NCBI GenBank assembly: GCA_021157815.1
Contig: JAGGVT010000145.1
Span: forward strand, 1-35,763
Origin: a bacterium
GTDB taxonomy: Bacteria > JAJVIF01 > JAGGVT01
DNA: 35,763 bases
Direction: 5' to 3'
The notes under the pieces: generated by a model
Databases searched by the model: none
What the model was told of the DNA's origin: nothing
What the model saw: only the letters and a program-made list of their open reading frames with translations
In this document: positions 23,065 to 32,325 of the stretch, one piece after another
How the letters are laid out: each line of letters begins with the position of its first letter
How positions within the stretch are numbered: the first letter of the stretch is position 1
Translations under genes and position numbers: made by a program

Positions 23065-23304
23065 TAACCTACTAACCTACTAACCTACTAACCTACTAAC
23101 TTACTAACCTACTAACCTACTAACTTACTAACCTGCTAACCTACTAACCTGCTAACTTACTAACCTGCTAACTTACTAACCTGCTAACTTACTAACCTGC
23201 TAACTTACTAACTTACTAACCTACTAACCTGCTAACCTGCTAACTTACTAACCTACTAACCTGCTAACCTGCTAACATGCTAACTTACTAACCTGCTAAC
23301 GTTC
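23065..23304. repeat. Second tandem array of the 8-bp unit (TAACYTRC), 30 copies
   Basis: Exactly 30 units of eight bases run from 23065 to 23304, then fade into a partial unit. The first 29 follow TAAC(C/T)T(A/G)C except one TAACATGC; the last is TAACGTTC. On the coding strand (minus) the array again starts at the 3' end of a gene for an exported protein, here overlapping it: the last codons (LER) and the TAG stop are read from the first repeat units. This is the same unit, phase and orientation relative to the gene as at 4585-4768. Confidence 0.97.
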
Positions 23305-26076
23305 TAACTTTTTCGCCACTTCCTCTATTTCCCTAAAATCATCCTGCGTGACAGCATAAAGATATCCTCTGTCGAAATTGTTCGACAAGAATGTGTGGAA
23401 TTCATCATCAGTCATCATGTCATCAGGTTTGATGTAATCGACTCTAACCGAATACTCTCCGACCTGCCTGCCTGTGAATGGAATCTCAATCTCAGCTTTT
23501 CCCTTGGACAAATCGCACGGAACGATGAAAGCTGTTCCTGAGTCAAACTGGATTATGTTAGTTGTCAGATTCATGATTTCCAGATAGAGAATTTCATCCT
23601 CAGGAAATTCGATATCTCCGGCATCAAGTGTGAGTGTTATTTTACCACGTTCGTTCGATTTCAAAACAGGCGTACCCTCGCTTGTAAGCTTGACCGCCGT
23701 TGTAATCTGGTTGGTTGGTAGAACTGTCACATCGTTTAGAATCTCATAAACCTCGTATTTACCCGGCTCAGTGTTCGTGGGGATATAGCAGCGATAGTCA
23801 ATCGAACTGGTCGCAAGAGGCGGCAGTTTGACAAGTTCGCTAATATTCACATCGGATTTATCAACAGGCCCCAGGCCCAAACCGAGAAGGTCGCCGCTTT
23901 CCGTTGGCACAAGAGGATTGTCGATAACTCTTTTCGGAAAATATCCGAAAGCGTCAACAGTCTCACCCGGCTTGATTATTTCAGGGAAATGCTTAACAAC
24001 CGGAGGCAGATACTCCTCAGGATTTATTATCAGATCATCCCAGACAGGATCGGGAGTCTCATACACAGTTGGCATGTCAGGCTTGTAAATATCATCGGGA
24101 TTTGGATACGCTGTATCCGCTGATGGCGGCTTATATCCATCAGGCGTGAAAGCTGGTGAATCCTCAGGGATTTCCGGGCTATACTCAGGCTGATCCTTTG
24201 GTGAATACACCCAGGTATCCTCCGGCATGATTCTTTCAGATGGATACGGTGACGGATCAATTGACCTTTTCAAAAATGGATTCGGTATGTCATCCGGAAC
24301 GAATGTTGTTATTTCACCAAGTTCAGTCTTTTTGTTGCCGGGATTAATTAAGCTAACAATTCCGGCTCCGCCAGTAATCATGGTTACCCATTCCATGCTT
24401 GAGTATTTACCACTCGGATCAGTCAATGGCTCACCAACTGGTTCAACCGTGTAATCATCCACGACAACGTTTCCGACAATGATATCCCCGTCGATATTTC
24501 TGAAATCGAAAGGCACTTCAGGATCAACCTTTCTAGCGTCGTTGATTACAGTTCCGGTGATTATGTCGCAATCAAGCGCGTAATCGACAAATTCAACTTT
24601 CTGTTTGAACTTATCCCAGTCGAGTTCTTTGGGATCCCACATAATATCATCCATATCAGCGGGATCAATCAGGGGCTTCCATCCGGTTGGCGGCGGGTCA
24701 AGAGGGGTGCCGTCTGTGTCATAGCGACCGGGCCACATGCCCTCGCCGGGAGTGATTACTCCTCCACCATTATCCGGAATGTCAATAGTTCCGCTGCCTC
24801 TGTAACTTGAACCCGGAGTTACAGCCGGTCTTGTGCGTTGATTGTATGATCCCTGACCACTTGACGGTGTGGTTGCTGAACCGGGAGTTGTAGCCGGCGT
24901 ATCGGTTGAAGCTGGCTGCCTGCAGTAAGCGTCCATGGTTGCCGTGAAACACCTTCCATCCTGTTTTCTTCCGTTGTAAAGCACTCTCGTTTCCCATGTT
25001 TTGGAATCCCAGTAGCTTTCATAATCTGTTTTAGCCTTTCCGGTCAGGCTGGGTTTTGGCGGCATGTTGAATTTGCCTTTAGCTGTGAAATTTAATTTGT
25101 CACGATAATGAACAGTATGCCCCGGATGTTCCGGTGTCGCATGAGTTCCGTTAAATACAACATCTTTTACCTCATGGTCACCAAGCGGAAATGGATTTGA
25201 CGGTTCAAATTCCCAAATCCAGCCACCGGTTGATGGCAGCTCTTCTACATAAATATTGCATGTTCCCGGATGAGTTACAATGCTCTCACCACCGGCATCA
25301 TGCGATCCATGTATTTTCAGTTTAAGATAAACCGTACCGACTGGTCCCGTATGATCCATTCGGTTTATGATATGGAAATCATCGCCCCAGTAGGGGTTAA
25401 TCACAATAATCTCCGTGTTGGCGGAGGCATCCGCGTTTACATTAATCCATCGATATCTTGGAGTCGAATCCCATAGCGACGTATTCTGGAAATAAGCATG
25501 ATTCTGCCATGTTGGTCCGCTGTTATTCAACTTGAAATAACCGTCATCATAAACAGCAGCGACAATTTTCAAATTATGGCTGTTGAATCCGCCGCATTCC
25601 CACTCGTCCATTCCCATGAGAAGTTGATTTTGAACGTGGACATAACAGTCTTCATCCTTTGCAGCGTAGCCAGTCTCGGGAATACGCTCCTGATACATAA
25701 GTTCGCCGTCGTAGAAAACCAAATACTCGAAGTAAATCCATTCATCATTTGAAATTGACCAGGCGTTGCTAAATCCAAATTCAATATCAATTGGGACTTG
25801 GATGACATCGCCGATATCAGCCCACACAGTTTTCTGTGTCGCTGCCTGATTTATCCTGCAGAACGTTGATCCCTGCGATTGTTTATATACTTTGGTGGCA
25901 CAATCAAGTATCGTCATTACAGTTGACGCAATCCCGATTACAGCCACAACACCGATAGCCTCTGCAGGTTTCGGTGTAAAAGCACCCGGCACAAGGATAA
26001 GTACCGCAAGAAGGATAATGACAACGAATCGTTGGACAGGTGAAATATTTCGTCTTGAATTGTTTGGTATTTTCAC
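23296..26076 (-). CDS. Large exported protein, Pro/Asp-rich, unknown function
   Basis: I do not recognise this 926-residue protein. It begins with a signal peptide (hydrophobic VVIILLAVLILVPGAF, probable cut after PAEA near residue 40). Residues 60-390 are beta-rich with scattered cysteines (C58, C73, CYVHV, ECGG). A Thr/Ser/Pro/Gly-rich linker (TDTPATTPGSATTPSSG) follows at about 398-440. Residues 450-740 are dense in Pro, Asp, Glu and Tyr (SPEIPEDSPAFTPDGYKPPS). The end is an Ig-like beta domain (KLTSEGTPVLKSNERGKITL). No lipobox, no anchor and no cell-wall motif is visible. GTG at 26074-26076 has GGAGG eight bases upstream. The stop lies inside the 8-bp array. Likely a surface or extracellular structural protein. 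Confidence 0.7.
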   Translation of the reverse strand: MKIPNNSRRNISPVQRFVVIILLAVLILVPGAFTPKPAEAIGVVAVIGIASTVMTILDCATKVYKQSQGSTFCRINQAATQKTVWADIGDVIQVPIDIEFGFSNAWSISNDEWIYFEYLVFYDGELMYQERIPETGYAAKDEDCYVHVQNQLLMGMDEWECGGFNSHNLKIVAAVYDDGYFKLNNSGPTWQNHAYFQNTSLWDSTPRYRWINVNADASANTEIIVINPYWGDDFHIINRMDHTGPVGTVYLKLKIHGSHDAGGESIVTHPGTCNIYVEELPSTGGWIWEFEPSNPFPLGDHEVKDVVFNGTHATPEHPGHTVHYRDKLNFTAKGKFNMPPKPSLTGKAKTDYESYWDSKTWETRVLYNGRKQDGRCFTATMDAYCRQPASTDTPATTPGSATTPSSGQGSYNQRTRPAVTPGSSYRGSGTIDIPDNGGGVITPGEGMWPGRYDTDGTPLDPPPTGWKPLIDPADMDDIMWDPKELDWDKFKQKVEFVDYALDCDIITGTVINDARKVDPEVPFDFRNIDGDIIVGNVVVDDYTVEPVGEPLTDPSGKYSSMEWVTMITGGAGIVSLINPGNKKTELGEITTFVPDDIPNPFLKRSIDPSPYPSERIMPEDTWVYSPKDQPEYSPEIPEDSPAFTPDGYKPPSADTAYPNPDDIYKPDMPTVYETPDPVWDDLIINPEEYLPPVVKHFPEIIKPGETVDAFGYFPKRVIDNPLVPTESGDLLGLGLGPVDKSDVNISELVKLPPLATSSIDYRCYIPTNTEPGKYEVYEILNDVTVLPTNQITTAVKLTSEGTPVLKSNERGKITLTLDAGDIEFPEDEILYLEIMNLTTNIIQFDSGTAFIVPCDLSKGKAEIEIPFTGRQVGEYSVRVDYIKPDDMMTDDEFHTFLSNNFDRGYLYAVTQDDFREIEEVAKKLER

Positions 26077-28389: not shown

Positions 28390-28920
28390 TTAAAGATCAG
28401 CAGCTGGAGCAGCTGAATCATCTTCTTTTTCCTCAATTGCATCATCCGCGGCATCAAAATCCACGCTTTCCCATATCTCAGCCAAGAGAGCATTTCCCGA
28501 ATTCTTTTCAGCCAATTCAATGATGGTATCCATCCTTATTGAATAAACAGTCGTTGAGCCGGATAGAACCACATGGATTTCCTTGAGATTCTTAAAATTC
28601 TCAGACAGAATTTTGATAGCTTTCGGAACATTCTTTTCAGCATTGTCATTCTTGATAATCGCTTTAATCAAAGTACCCTTTTTGTTCTTCTGGAGGCTTT
28701 CCAGAATCATGGATGAATCCTTGAACAGTGATTCTATTTCCTCGAAAATCGTGGGCGTTAAATCTGAAAGAACTTCAGATTGATTTTTGGATGATGAGTC
28801 ACCATTCATGGAATTCGCCTGAGGTGTCAAATCATTTTTTTTGGCGGCGTTCGATCCGCTGCATGCAATACTGAATACTGCAAGCATTAGAATAATCACA
28901 CAGGCATAGTATCTTGTCAT
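28390..28920 (-). CDS. Small lipoprotein of unknown function
   Basis: The 176-residue product has a lipoprotein signal ending FSIAC (C20). The mature protein is a Ser/Asn-rich spacer, a helical and beta central part (about 50-155) without a family I recognise, and an acidic tail (EEKEDDSAAPAADL). ATG has AAGGA eight bases upstream. It is the last gene of a minus-strand run that includes the GxGD membrane protease 103 bases upstream, so it may be in the same transcript. Confidence 0.7.
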   Translation of the reverse strand: MTRYYACVIILMLAVFSIACSGSNAAKKNDLTPQANSMNGDSSSKNQSEVLSDLTPTIFEEIESLFKDSSMILESLQKNKKGTLIKAIIKNDNAEKNVPKAIKILSENFKNLKEIHVVLSGSTTVYSIRMDTIIELAEKNSGNALLAEIWESVDFDAADDAIEEKEDDSAAPAADL

Positions 28921-29023: not shown

Positions 29024-29914
29024 TTAAAGCAATCTCAGAACCCAGACAAGAATAATGATGAATAACACTGCAATTATGGAAATGACTATTTCCTTCCGGC
29101 TTAACGAAAGGTGGCGAAGGTTAACCAGAATAAATAAAACCGCGATAACAGGAAGCGCCGGAATACCCTTTCCAATAATATTGGCTGTCATTACAGCGAT
29201 TGTAGGCCCGGCGATTAACGCCGCGTAGGATTGTATTCTTGGCAGGTTGAATCGATAAATGCATCCTATGAAAAACGCGAGTATTATTAAATCGCCAACT
29301 CCGATAAATGAGTATATTTTATCGGTTGCCAATTGCGGAAAATTCAAAAGTAGAAATGAAATAAAAGGCGGCACGACTTCCTGAGCGTAACCTCCGCTTT
29401 CGGTGAATTCAGCCGCCTTTTGCGCAATCTGCTTGCTGGGTCCCTGGCTTACGCTCCAGAAATCAACAAGCGCAATAACTATTGCCACCGGCAAAAGGTG
29501 TCCGGCTTTGATAACCTCGCGAGACAAAAGCTCTCCAAGCAGAAACGATGTGATAATTAAAAATATTCCATTAGACATCACCAGAGCCAGCGATGTTGGC
29601 AATGACCGTACAGCAATTATCGTCAGTATGAAAATCAGCAGCGATGGTATTAATGCGAGTTTCAGCGACATTGATGAAAAATTTTCAAGATTAGAAATTC
29701 GATATCCGCCGATTATAATCAAAATTGCTGTGAGTACAGCGATAACCGCAGACACATGAAGAACGAGCATGTGGGTGGAGTCGCTTGCAATCGCGTCAAC
29801 ATGACCTGACAAAATCCTGCCGATTAGGGCAAATAATCCAAACGCCACAATCCAGATTAACAGGTAACCGATTGGATGAGAGAAAACAGGTGAGTTCTTT
29901 ATATTTTCATTCAA
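29024..29914 (-). CDS. Presenilin/signal-peptide-peptidase-type GxGD intramembrane aspartyl protease
   Basis: The 296-residue protein is built of about nine hydrophobic helices. Three hallmarks of family A22-like GxGD proteases appear in the right order: a first aspartate in a helix (D151 in VIALVDFWSVSQGPSK, compare YDAISVYK of archaeal presenilin homologues), the GxGD motif with the second aspartate (FIGVGDLII, G205-D208), and the PAL motif (GIPALPVI, P252-L254). The two aspartates are 57 residues apart and PAL follows 44 later, close to the archaeal enzymes of about 300 residues. It would cleave transmembrane segments of membrane or lipoproteins inside the bilayer. TTG start (29912-29914) with AGGTG five bases upstream, overlapping the stop of the upstream gene's region (11-base gap): one operon. 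Not prepilin peptidase: the cysteine domain is absent. Confidence 0.8.
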   Translation of the reverse strand: MNENIKNSPVFSHPIGYLLIWIVAFGLFALIGRILSGHVDAIASDSTHMLVLHVSAVIAVLTAILIIIGGYRISNLENFSSMSLKLALIPSLLIFILTIIAVRSLPTSLALVMSNGIFLIITSFLLGELLSREVIKAGHLLPVAIVIALVDFWSVSQGPSKQIAQKAAEFTESGGYAQEVVPPFISFLLLNFPQLATDKIYSFIGVGDLIILAFFIGCIYRFNLPRIQSYAALIAGPTIAVMTANIIGKGIPALPVIAVLFILVNLRHLSLSRKEIVISIIAVLFIIILVWVLRLL

Positions 29915-29925
29915 AATGTCACCTG

Positions 29926-30951
29926 TTAAAGCGCATTGCTTAAATCAAAAACACTGAGTTTGCCGAGAAAATCGAGCACGATAAGTTCACGTGTTCCATC
30001 ACCGTTTATATCACCAAGCACCCATTTGGATGTATTTGATGGCACCGAAACATCAAATATGGTGGCTGGATTATCATCCATTCTGAAAAAGCTGATTTTG
30101 CTGTCAGCGTCCTCACTCCTGACAAAATATGTAAGATATGAAATCCCGGATTTGTCAATCTGTCCAGCCCATCCGATTTTCTCAACATTATTGGCGGGAA
30201 GCCTGAATTGCCTGTATTTGTTAAACGGCGGATATGTTTTGTGAATACGATAATGGCCATCCGATGCCGGATTATCTGAAACAATCAGAAGTCCCTGTGG
30301 TTTATCACCCATGTAATGGTCTATTTCCAGATGGGATTCCTTTTCAATGTTGAAAAGAATCGCGGCGGCGTGCTGGCGAAGTTCAGGTGTGAAATTACCC
30401 GTGTTGAGTATGCCATAGGTGAAAGAGATTCCATCAAATGCGATTGAGCCGCATCGGAGAGTGATCATCTCCCAGCCGGACAGTTTTGAGCTGAACTCAC
30501 CTGCGGTGAAATCCTTTACCCATTCATTTCCCGGAGTACTGTTAAAATGAATCACACCGACATCACTGACCATATATTCCATCCACTGAAATAGATGAAG
30601 ATCATCCAAAGTGTCAAGAAATACAAGAAACGCGCTTTCGTTTGATGATACAGGCGGTAGAAATATTTTTATCACGCGGTGTATTTCAAATTCAGGATTA
30701 GATACCCATTTTTCTATGAACTCCATGTTTATCGAATCCCAGGACAATATCTGATAAGCGCCGTAATCATCGGAAAGAACCAGCTCATCGCCCGGATTGC
30801 CATCCAGATTGGAACACGCGATACACGCTGTGTAATACTGCTCACCTGCAGGAGGAGTATCGCAGTATATCAAAGAGACATCCGCTGCATGGATAACAGA
30901 AACAGGCAGCATGAAAATAGCGATGATGCTCATAAGCACTATCTTAGCCAT
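29926..30951 (-). CDS. Exported FG-GAP/propeller-like protein
   Basis: The 341-residue product has a Sec signal (IVLMSIIAIFMLPVSVIHA) and repeats with Ca-binding DxNxDGxxE-type loops, best seen at the end (LGDINGDGTRELIVLDFLGK) and start (CSNLDGNPGDELVLSDDYGA). This points to a beta-propeller of the FG-GAP/VCBS kind. I chose ATG at 30949-30951; the frame runs on to 31080 but those codons are read from element C. The gene is 11 bases ahead of the GxGD protease gene. A MITE-like element sits about 40 bases before the start, so it may have altered the promoter. Confidence 0.75.
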   Translation of the reverse strand: MAKIVLMSIIAIFMLPVSVIHAADVSLIYCDTPPAGEQYYTACIACSNLDGNPGDELVLSDDYGAYQILSWDSINMEFIEKWVSNPEFEIHRVIKIFLPPVSSNESAFLVFLDTLDDLHLFQWMEYMVSDVGVIHFNSTPGNEWVKDFTAGEFSSKLSGWEMITLRCGSIAFDGISFTYGILNTGNFTPELRQHAAAILFNIEKESHLEIDHYMGDKPQGLLIVSDNPASDGHYRIHKTYPPFNKYRQFRLPANNVEKIGWAGQIDKSGISYLTYFVRSEDADSKISFFRMDDNPATIFDVSVPSNTSKWVLGDINGDGTRELIVLDFLGKLSVFDLSNAL

Positions 30952-30991
30952 CCCTGATAGACTATATTTCAAGTATGAGATAAATGTTTTT

Positions 30992-31171
30992 CCTGGGAGC
31001 GCTGGTCTCTGACCGGCACCTGAGCAGGCTAACTTTAAATAGTAAAAATGATATCTCTCGAACATGGTTGATAAATTCAACCCCTTTCTTTTAGCATGTT
31101 ATCTGTTAGATATACTCTATTGATTTCTATTAACCTTGTTCAGGTGCCGGTCAGAGACCGGCGCTCCCAGG
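30992..31171 (+). mobile_element. Dispersed element C, copy 2 (MITE-like, 180 bp)
   Basis: Same terminal repeats as copy 1 at 16339-16516 and a matching core in opposite orientation. It fills the gap between the TPR lipoprotein gene and the FG-GAP protein gene. The TATGAGATAAATGTTTTT flank shared with copy 1 lies at about 30974-30991. Confidence 0.88.
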
Positions 31172-31197: not shown

Positions 31198-32325
31198 TCA
31201 ATCGCTTATTTCGCTGTCAAGTTCAGTTAGCTTTTCCTTTGCCTTTGCTGCATTACTCCCAAACGGATTGTTTGTCAGGTAGTTACGGTAATAGTCAATG
31301 GCTTTATACAAATCACCGATATTCTCATACGCTCCCGCTATTTCAAAACCATCCTTCTCATCCCCTCCGCTTAGCCTGACATACTCCTTTATGTATTTCT
31401 CCTCTAGGGAATTGCTGCCTTTCGCGTAATACAATTTAGCCAGGCTTTTAGCTGCCTCGATTGATTTTTTATCCTGCCTTAAAGCCTGTTTCAGACGATT
31501 CTCCGCTGTAGAGTATTCGCCTTTTTTCAAAGATGCATTGCCCTCGTTTAGTAACTGCGATGTCGTTTTCTTCGGCTTGGGCGCAACTGTTTTCTTTTTA
31601 ACTTCCTTATCGGGCGTTTTGATTATATCAGGCTTCTTCTCTTCAACCGGAGTTTCCTTTACAGGCTGTACTATTTCTGCAGGAGTTATTTCAGGAATTT
31701 CCACAGGTTGTGAATCCGTAGTTTCAGTTGTAGATATTTCAGTCTCCTCGATAATGCCTTCATCAGATGCCAGTGAATTAAGCACCTCATTTGCTTTTTT
31801 CGACCATCTTCCATCAGCTGAATTTGCGATGTAATTCTGAAGATGGAATTTAGTTAAAGCATCCTCATTCTGGGCATGAGCGAGCATCGCCAACCCATAA
31901 TCTGAATCAGTGAAAGAGGGATCAACTCGACGGCTTTTTCTGAACAGTTCAGCCGCCGTTTCATAATTCTCCTGCTTTAGATATATCCAACCAAGATTGA
32001 AAAGCAGGCGCGGGTCGTATTGTTTCTCTTCCAGAAGTTTTGTGTATTCATCACGTGCCTTATCCAGATTTCCTTTGAGAAAGTCAATATTTGCCAGATT
32101 CAATCGCGCTTCAGTGAAATCAGGATTCAGGATTACCGCTTTTTTGAAATAATTCCCCGCCAAATCCAGGTTATTAGCCTTAACTGCTTTTACACCAAGG
32201 TTGTATGAATTATATGACTCTATCTGCTGTTTATCCCCACTGCGGCATGAGATAGCCGATATCGCCATGATACCGGCAATAACTGCAAGGATTATTCCAA
32301 TTCGATATGAATGCAAACCTGTCAT
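31198..32325 (-). CDS. TPR-repeat lipoprotein
   Basis: A lipoprotein signal ends at C27 (ISAISC). Residues 35-190 contain about four tetratricopeptide repeats (for example AGNYFKKAVILNPDFTEARL, then LFNLGWIYLKQENYETAAEL). A Thr/Pro/Lys/Glu-rich linker (about 205-260) follows, then two or three more TPRs (LLNEGNASLKKGEYSTAENR; AIDYYRNYLTNNPFG). Such proteins are scaffolds for envelope complexes; the partner is unknown. ATG with GGA five bases upstream. A small zinc-ribbon gene ends about 16 bases before it. Confidence 0.85.
   Translation of the reverse strand: MTGLHSYRIGIILAVIAGIMAISAISCRSGDKQQIESYNSYNLGVKAVKANNLDLAGNYFKKAVILNPDFTEARLNLANIDFLKGNLDKARDEYTKLLEEKQYDPRLLFNLGWIYLKQENYETAAELFRKSRRVDPSFTDSDYGLAMLAHAQNEDALTKFHLQNYIANSADGRWSKKANEVLNSLASDEGIIEETEISTTETTDSQPVEIPEITPAEIVQPVKETPVEEKKPDIIKTPDKEVKKKTVAPKPKKTTSQLLNEGNASLKKGEYSTAENRLKQALRQDKKSIEAAKSLAKLYYAKGSNSLEEKYIKEYVRLSGGDEKDGFEIAGAYENIGDLYKAIDYYRNYLTNNPFGSNAAKAKEKLTELDSEISD

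Follow-up and report, generated by a model that had tools for sequence, protein, structure and literature searches.

The locus and its neighbours

The window analysed here, meaning the whole stretch of 35,763 nucleotides of bacterial DNA, carries on its minus strand an open reading frame at 29024-29914 that starts with TTG at 29914-29912 and is translated into a polytopic protein of 296 aa. The TTG start and the 296 residues given in the initial annotation are borne out by the translation, and the strand, absent from that annotation, is established here. The gene and the features around it are as follows:

29024..29914, minus strand: presenilin-like GxGD diaspartyl membrane protein, 296 aa (open reading frame, homologues, profile and AlphaFold2 model)
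29919..29924, minus strand: AGGTGA resembling a Shine-Dalgarno sequence, 4 nt upstream of TTG (sequence)
29926..31080, minus strand: upstream gene, candidate partner; its FG-GAP-like product is secreted and has a signal peptide (weak FG-GAP match)
31198..32325, minus strand: TPR lipoprotein gene, farther upstream
28390..28920, minus strand: downstream gene for a lipoprotein-like protein of 176 aa with lipobox ..FSIAC, candidate partner (sequence)

Since AGGTGA stands 4 nt upstream and the stop codon of the preceding gene is 11 nt from the TTG, both this start and an operon with the 29926-31080 gene are plausible; the FG-GAP-like and presenilin-like genes likely belong to one transcription unit. 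Zero matches were returned when the window protein was compared with the Pfam and NCBIfam models, and equally when plasmid and phage collections were searched with it.

An FG-GAP-like homologue also lies directly upstream of the presenilin-like gene at a second locus (G001/L023; BLASTP E 1.3e-9), and a lipoprotein with weak similarity to the 176-aa protein lies directly downstream of the homologue in genome G002 (BLASTP E 2.4e-5; hhalign E 0.024). The FG-GAP-like neighbour is common to presenilin-like loci only inside the class of the window organism. Outside this class the neighbours are mostly housekeeping genes, for example those for tRNA pseudouridine synthase, DAP epimerase, radical SAM proteins and CtaA. 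A dedicated partner gene shared by the whole family was looked for in the homologue neighbourhoods and not found; as the neighbours outside the class are unrelated housekeeping genes, there is no family-wide partner. The secreted FG-GAP protein and the lipoprotein may be regarded as candidate partners only. The idea that the presenilin-like protein replaces the usual bacterial membrane and signal-peptide proteases was rejected, as the window genome has M50 (RseP-type) and S49 (SppA-type) genes.

Distribution and conserved motifs of the family

A divergent bacterial family of about 30 members was assembled around the window protein by searches with the protein and then with alignments. All four genomes sampled from the class of the window organism contain homologues, as do 11 of the 381 further bacterial genomes that were sampled. 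In the named GTDB collection, members belong to Fimbriimonadales and other Armatimonadota, Abditibacteriaceae (Abditibacteriota), UBP7 and unnamed bacteria, and also include the cultured Minicystis rosea (Myxococcota), two Deltaproteobacteria-labelled bins and Planctomycetota-labelled bins. In a tree, the window copy clusters with genomes of its own class and one Myxococcota-labelled bin, the Armatimonadota copies come together, and PSEN1 sits on a very long branch. The archaeal family model PF06550 had zero matches in the 289 bacterial genomes searched and thus gives no hint that a gene of this kind was recently acquired from archaea; PF01080 gave nothing over cut-off in 97 bacterial genomes. 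The presenilin-like bacterial family looks old and divergent. Judged from its sequence, the window gene is a member of a previously unnamed, patchily spread family of bacterial membrane proteins with presenilin hallmarks.

These hallmarks are located as follows:

29462..29464, minus strand: D151, predicted first catalytic aspartate (Asp1), equivalent to PSEN1 D257 (invariant in 28/28; hhalign onto D257)
29438..29455, minus strand: S154-V-S-Q-G-P159, where the Asp1 helix ends and the next one starts, equivalent to PSEN1 AVLCPKGP/TM6a (conservation, DSSP, hhalign)
29291..29302, minus strand: G205-V-G-D208, GxGD motif with the predicted second catalytic aspartate (Asp2), equivalent to PSEN1 D385 (conservation; hmmsearch and hhalign onto GLGD)
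29153..29161, minus strand: P252-A-L254, PAL motif (PALP 252-255; conservation; aligned to PSEN1 PAL 433-435)

The initial annotation had read an aspartate in a helix at 151, GVGD at 205-208 and PAL at 252-254; the translation places all three exactly there, and the motifs are conserved across 28 members. In particular, G205 and D208 are found in every member and G207 in 24; P252 is likewise universal, with A253 and L254 in 24 each. D151, G205, D208 and P252 are the sole invariant residues in this set, whose members share 16-33% identity with the window protein, while L140, P142, V155 and G158 are conserved in at least 90%. In the S154-P159 stretch, which hhalign aligns to CPKGPLRMLVETA of PSEN1, V155 is kept in 26 members and G158 in 27, and DSSP assigns a helix to 159-172. 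Four members replace GxGD by GxAD, GxTD or GxSD, and the aspartate is never altered. The residue before Asp1 is V, A, M or another, and the tyrosine that makes up the YD motif of presenilin occurs once among the 28. An invariance limited to both aspartates, the GxGD glycine and the PAL proline is what one expects of an active-site signature. When the window is translated in six frames, the pattern D-x(35-75)-GxGD-x(30-60)-PAL is seen a single time; it also occurs in 30 of 1,660 stop-to-stop open reading frames from all fetched loci, 29 of these 30 being members of the presenilin-like family.

Relationship to presenilin

Presenilin, the membrane-cutting protease linked to Alzheimer's disease in humans, is the known protein to which the family comes closest. 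When 177,635 PDB sequences were searched with the family profile (hmmsearch), presenilin-1 (2KR6) was the best match at E 7.7e-4, with GxGD aligned on GxGD and PALP on PALP. Detectable homology to a known A22 member was also found by hhalign with human PSEN1 (full-length, identical to PDB 5A63_B): the alignment with the full-length protein spans GxGD to PAL at E 1.6e-5, and removal of the large variable loop improves it to E 1.6e-6, with D257 falling on D151, D385 on D208 and PAL on PAL. In this loop-less alignment D257/CPKGP coincides with D151/SVSQGP; it was run with a permissive setting (-mact 0.01) and its flanks outside the motifs are therefore unreliable. As controls, 19 polytopic proteins gave E 0.13 or worse and reversed PSEN1 gave E 0.76, while none of the 60 local shuffles scored above 20, compared with 44-49 for the real PSEN1 alignments. 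The N-terminal part of presenilin taken alone did not match the family profile significantly (hhalign E 0.18); the Asp1 motif is precisely where its best local alignment falls.

In the HMM search proposed in the initial annotation, no gathering-level match was obtained to PF01080, PF04258 or PF06550; among these A22 models, PF01080 alone is reached by any member, below threshold, with a best E of 0.0024. The homologue at L023 scores 14.7 bits against a PF01080 gathering threshold of 34.3, and the window protein has no match to this model. None of the 28 members matches PF04258 (A22B) or PF06550 at E up to 1.

The claim of nine helices agrees with the AlphaFold2 model of the window protein (pLDDT 80, pTM 0.77, alignment depth of 19 sequences), which has nine helices of membrane or near-membrane length, the one at 253-264 being short. 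A second model, of the Fimbriimonadales homologue L030, has pLDDT 82.4 and pTM 0.81; the two are not fully independent because the same sequence pool was used for both. Both share one order: helices 1-4, the Asp1 helix, an adjoining second helix, the GxGD helix, one more helix, a short PAL helix and an extra C-terminal helix. Asp1 and the GxGD aspartate thus lie in one transmembrane helix and in the next (D151 in helix 137-156, D208 in helix 206-221), and PAL is placed C-terminally ahead of the last core helix, as in A22 proteins. D151 is in the fifth helix rather than in the sixth as in presenilin, a point missed in the initial annotation, and the layout is therefore shifted by one relative to presenilin. 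Indeed, the arrangement of PF01080 presenilins, with nine transmembrane segments and Asp1 in TM6, is not found here, as a further helix follows the PAL helix.

Foldseek against the PDB ranks PSEN1 first for both models, with probability 1.00 and a weak E of 0.029 for the window model and probability 0.97 and a weak E of 0.033 for L030; the TM-scores are only 0.3-0.42. The list for the window model also holds SPPL2a and the archaeal PSH 4HYG. Given these weak E values and low TM-scores, the support from the fold lies in the ranking and not in superposition, and the overall arrangement of the helices is not confirmed. For comparison, the C-gamma atoms of the two aspartates are 10.6-12 angstrom apart in apo enzymes (PMC9282858). 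The reading of the gene as a presenilin-like GxGD protease is supported, as PSEN1 comes first by profile and by fold search with the motifs in register.

Compared with presenilin (PF01080, MEROPS A22A; PSEN1 in gamma-secretase), the family shares a valine four residues after Asp1 followed by G-P a few residues on, a TM6a-like helix after Asp1, GxGD and PALP. It differs in its length, at about 300 aa, and in lacking the large PSEN1 loop, in having four instead of five helices before the Asp1 helix and an extra one at the C-terminus, in the V, A or M that replaces Y before Asp1, in a putatively inverted orientation and in scoring below the Pfam cut-off. With SPP and SPPL proteins (PF04258, A22B) it has in common GxGD, PAL, the probable orientation and the SPPL2a entry among the Foldseek matches, but it lacks an A22B match, YD and a PA domain. 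The archaeal PSH/MCMJR1 proteins (PF06550, PDB 4HYG) are likewise prokaryotic, of about 300 aa and equipped with GxGD, and 4HYG is in the Foldseek list; the bacterial family differs by having no PF06550 match and by its canonical PAL, whereas MCMJR1 is without a clear PAL motif (PMC2947513). The family lies outside the curated Pfam presenilin, A22B and archaeal SPP families; within the A22 superfamily, it is most suitably classed as a new variant from bacteria.

Orientation, proposed function and alternatives

The mean number of lysines and arginines across the family is 1.7, 1.8, 2.4 and 2.8 in loops 2-3, 4-5, 6-7 and 8-9, and 0.25, 0.57 and 0.54 in loops 1-2, 3-4 and 7-8. Loop 6-7 has a net charge of +2.25, and the Asp1-Asp2 loop is slightly negative. 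By the positive-inside rule, this places the N-terminus inside and the catalytic Asp1-Asp2 loop outside. A natural fusion points the same way. In genome G131 (L060:2303-5701, minus strand), a presenilin-like domain makes up the N-terminus of a protein of 1,132 aa. Some 270 soluble residues, two helices, a further soluble region, a HAMP domain and a class III nucleotide cyclase come, in this order, after the last presenilin-like helix; the fusion carries a GVSD variant and keeps both aspartates. Counting back from the cytoplasmic HAMP domain puts the region past the last presenilin-like helix outside, in agreement with the charges, and the roughly 270-residue soluble part is like a sensor-type, extracytoplasmic region. 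The same genome also encodes a free-standing presenilin-like copy.

Presenilin and SPP have reversed topology relative to each other (PMC7768045). From the charge counts and the one fusion, the family would, with reasonable though not high probability, be oriented like SPP and inverted with respect to presenilin, from which substrates with N-in/C-out (type II) segments are predicted. The same superfamily membership combined with a presenilin orientation, in which the active site would lie near the cytoplasm and type I segments would be cut, differs in topology alone and is rather unlikely: the sequence is indeed nearest to presenilin and not to SPP, but the positive charges, among them those of loop 6-7, would then sit outside, and the sensor-like region of the fusion partner comes after the last helix.

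Taken as an A22-superfamily homologue with a conserved active site, the family stands on firm ground, and we hold this part with high confidence. That its members are active proteases is predicted with somewhat less certainty but remains likely; the product of the window gene, a homologue of presenilin and signal peptide peptidase, is probably a bacterial intramembrane protease of the diaspartyl (GxGD) type. In the proposed mechanism, D151 and D208 on neighbouring helices would activate water inside the membrane, and a partly unwound transmembrane segment of the substrate, held against the PAL loop, would be cut; the helix at 159-172 after D151 may act as a TM6a gate. The N-terminus and the loops past the second catalytic helix would be cytoplasmic and the Asp1-Asp2 loop periplasmic, as the loop charges and the natural fusion suggest, so that N-in (type II) segments might be cleaved near the periplasmic face. 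Likely substrates would be segments in N-in/C-out orientation, for instance remnants of signal peptides or proteins with a signal anchor.

A true homologue of the superfamily could also have kept fold and motifs and be non-proteolytic; it might then serve as a sensor or scaffold, say, or as a channel or a module that binds lipids. The fusion of a GVSD-bearing homologue to a sensor, HAMP and cyclase, the GxAD and GxTD variants and the lack of a visible substrate in the gene neighbourhood are in line with this, yet it is quite unlikely, since the conservation of both aspartates in 28/28, members with altered GxGD and the fusion included, would be difficult to account for if neither catalysis nor proton chemistry were involved. 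Coincidental motifs in an unrelated multi-pass protein such as a transporter would account for the lack of a curated family match and for the TM-scores of less than 0.5 against presenilin; the conservation and the profile searches make this very improbable, as the motifs are invariant in a deep family, PSEN1 comes first by two methods and the controls are negative. A24 enzymes are common in bacteria, and a prepilin-peptidase-type GxGD protease (A24, including FlaK) would share the GxGD diaspartyl chemistry and the polytopic build. This origin is the least credible, hardly to be entertained: the family has no match to the A24 model (PF01478) at E up to 10, its motif context and helix layout differ, and PAL together with aspartates on adjacent helices are A22 features, whereas the A24 aspartates lie several helices apart (PMC2947513).

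With a diaspartyl protease as the preferred reading, the family may tentatively be seen as a branch of the intramembrane aspartyl proteases that is confined to bacteria, the third after presenilin and SPP. Such a branch would combine motifs like those of presenilin with shifted helices and an SPP-like orientation, and in at least one genome it is wired directly to a HAMP/nucleotide-cyclase signalling protein. Presenilin-type proteases have so far been studied in eukaryotes and archaea, and in the literature examined no description of a bacterial presenilin-type family was found. If true, this would mean that the presenilin active site arose in bacteria or was transferred there early. Small bacterial homologues with a canonical PAL would bear on the origins of presenilin and SPP and, should they be active without cofactors, could be models for gamma-secretase mechanism and inhibitors; genetics would be possible in principle in the cultured Minicystis rosea.

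Elsewhere in the window, the plus strand at 9175-15148 holds an ECF sigma factor gene, then a gene whose 923-aa product has a zf-HC2 anti-sigma domain at its N-terminus, followed by a transmembrane segment and MG2/MG3/alpha-2-macroglobulin bait-region domains, and then one for a lipoprotein with an A2M/TED part. This resembles an alpha-2-macroglobulin that has been split and joined to an anti-sigma factor, possibly a protease-sensing switch; as a partner of the presenilin-like protein it was discarded, as co-occurrence lends it no support. On the minus strand, 23296-26076 encodes a large (926 aa), proline-rich exported protein with an N-terminal signal and zero Pfam matches, and 34596-35444 a CAP-domain (SCP/YkwD-like) protein near tRNA-Pro.
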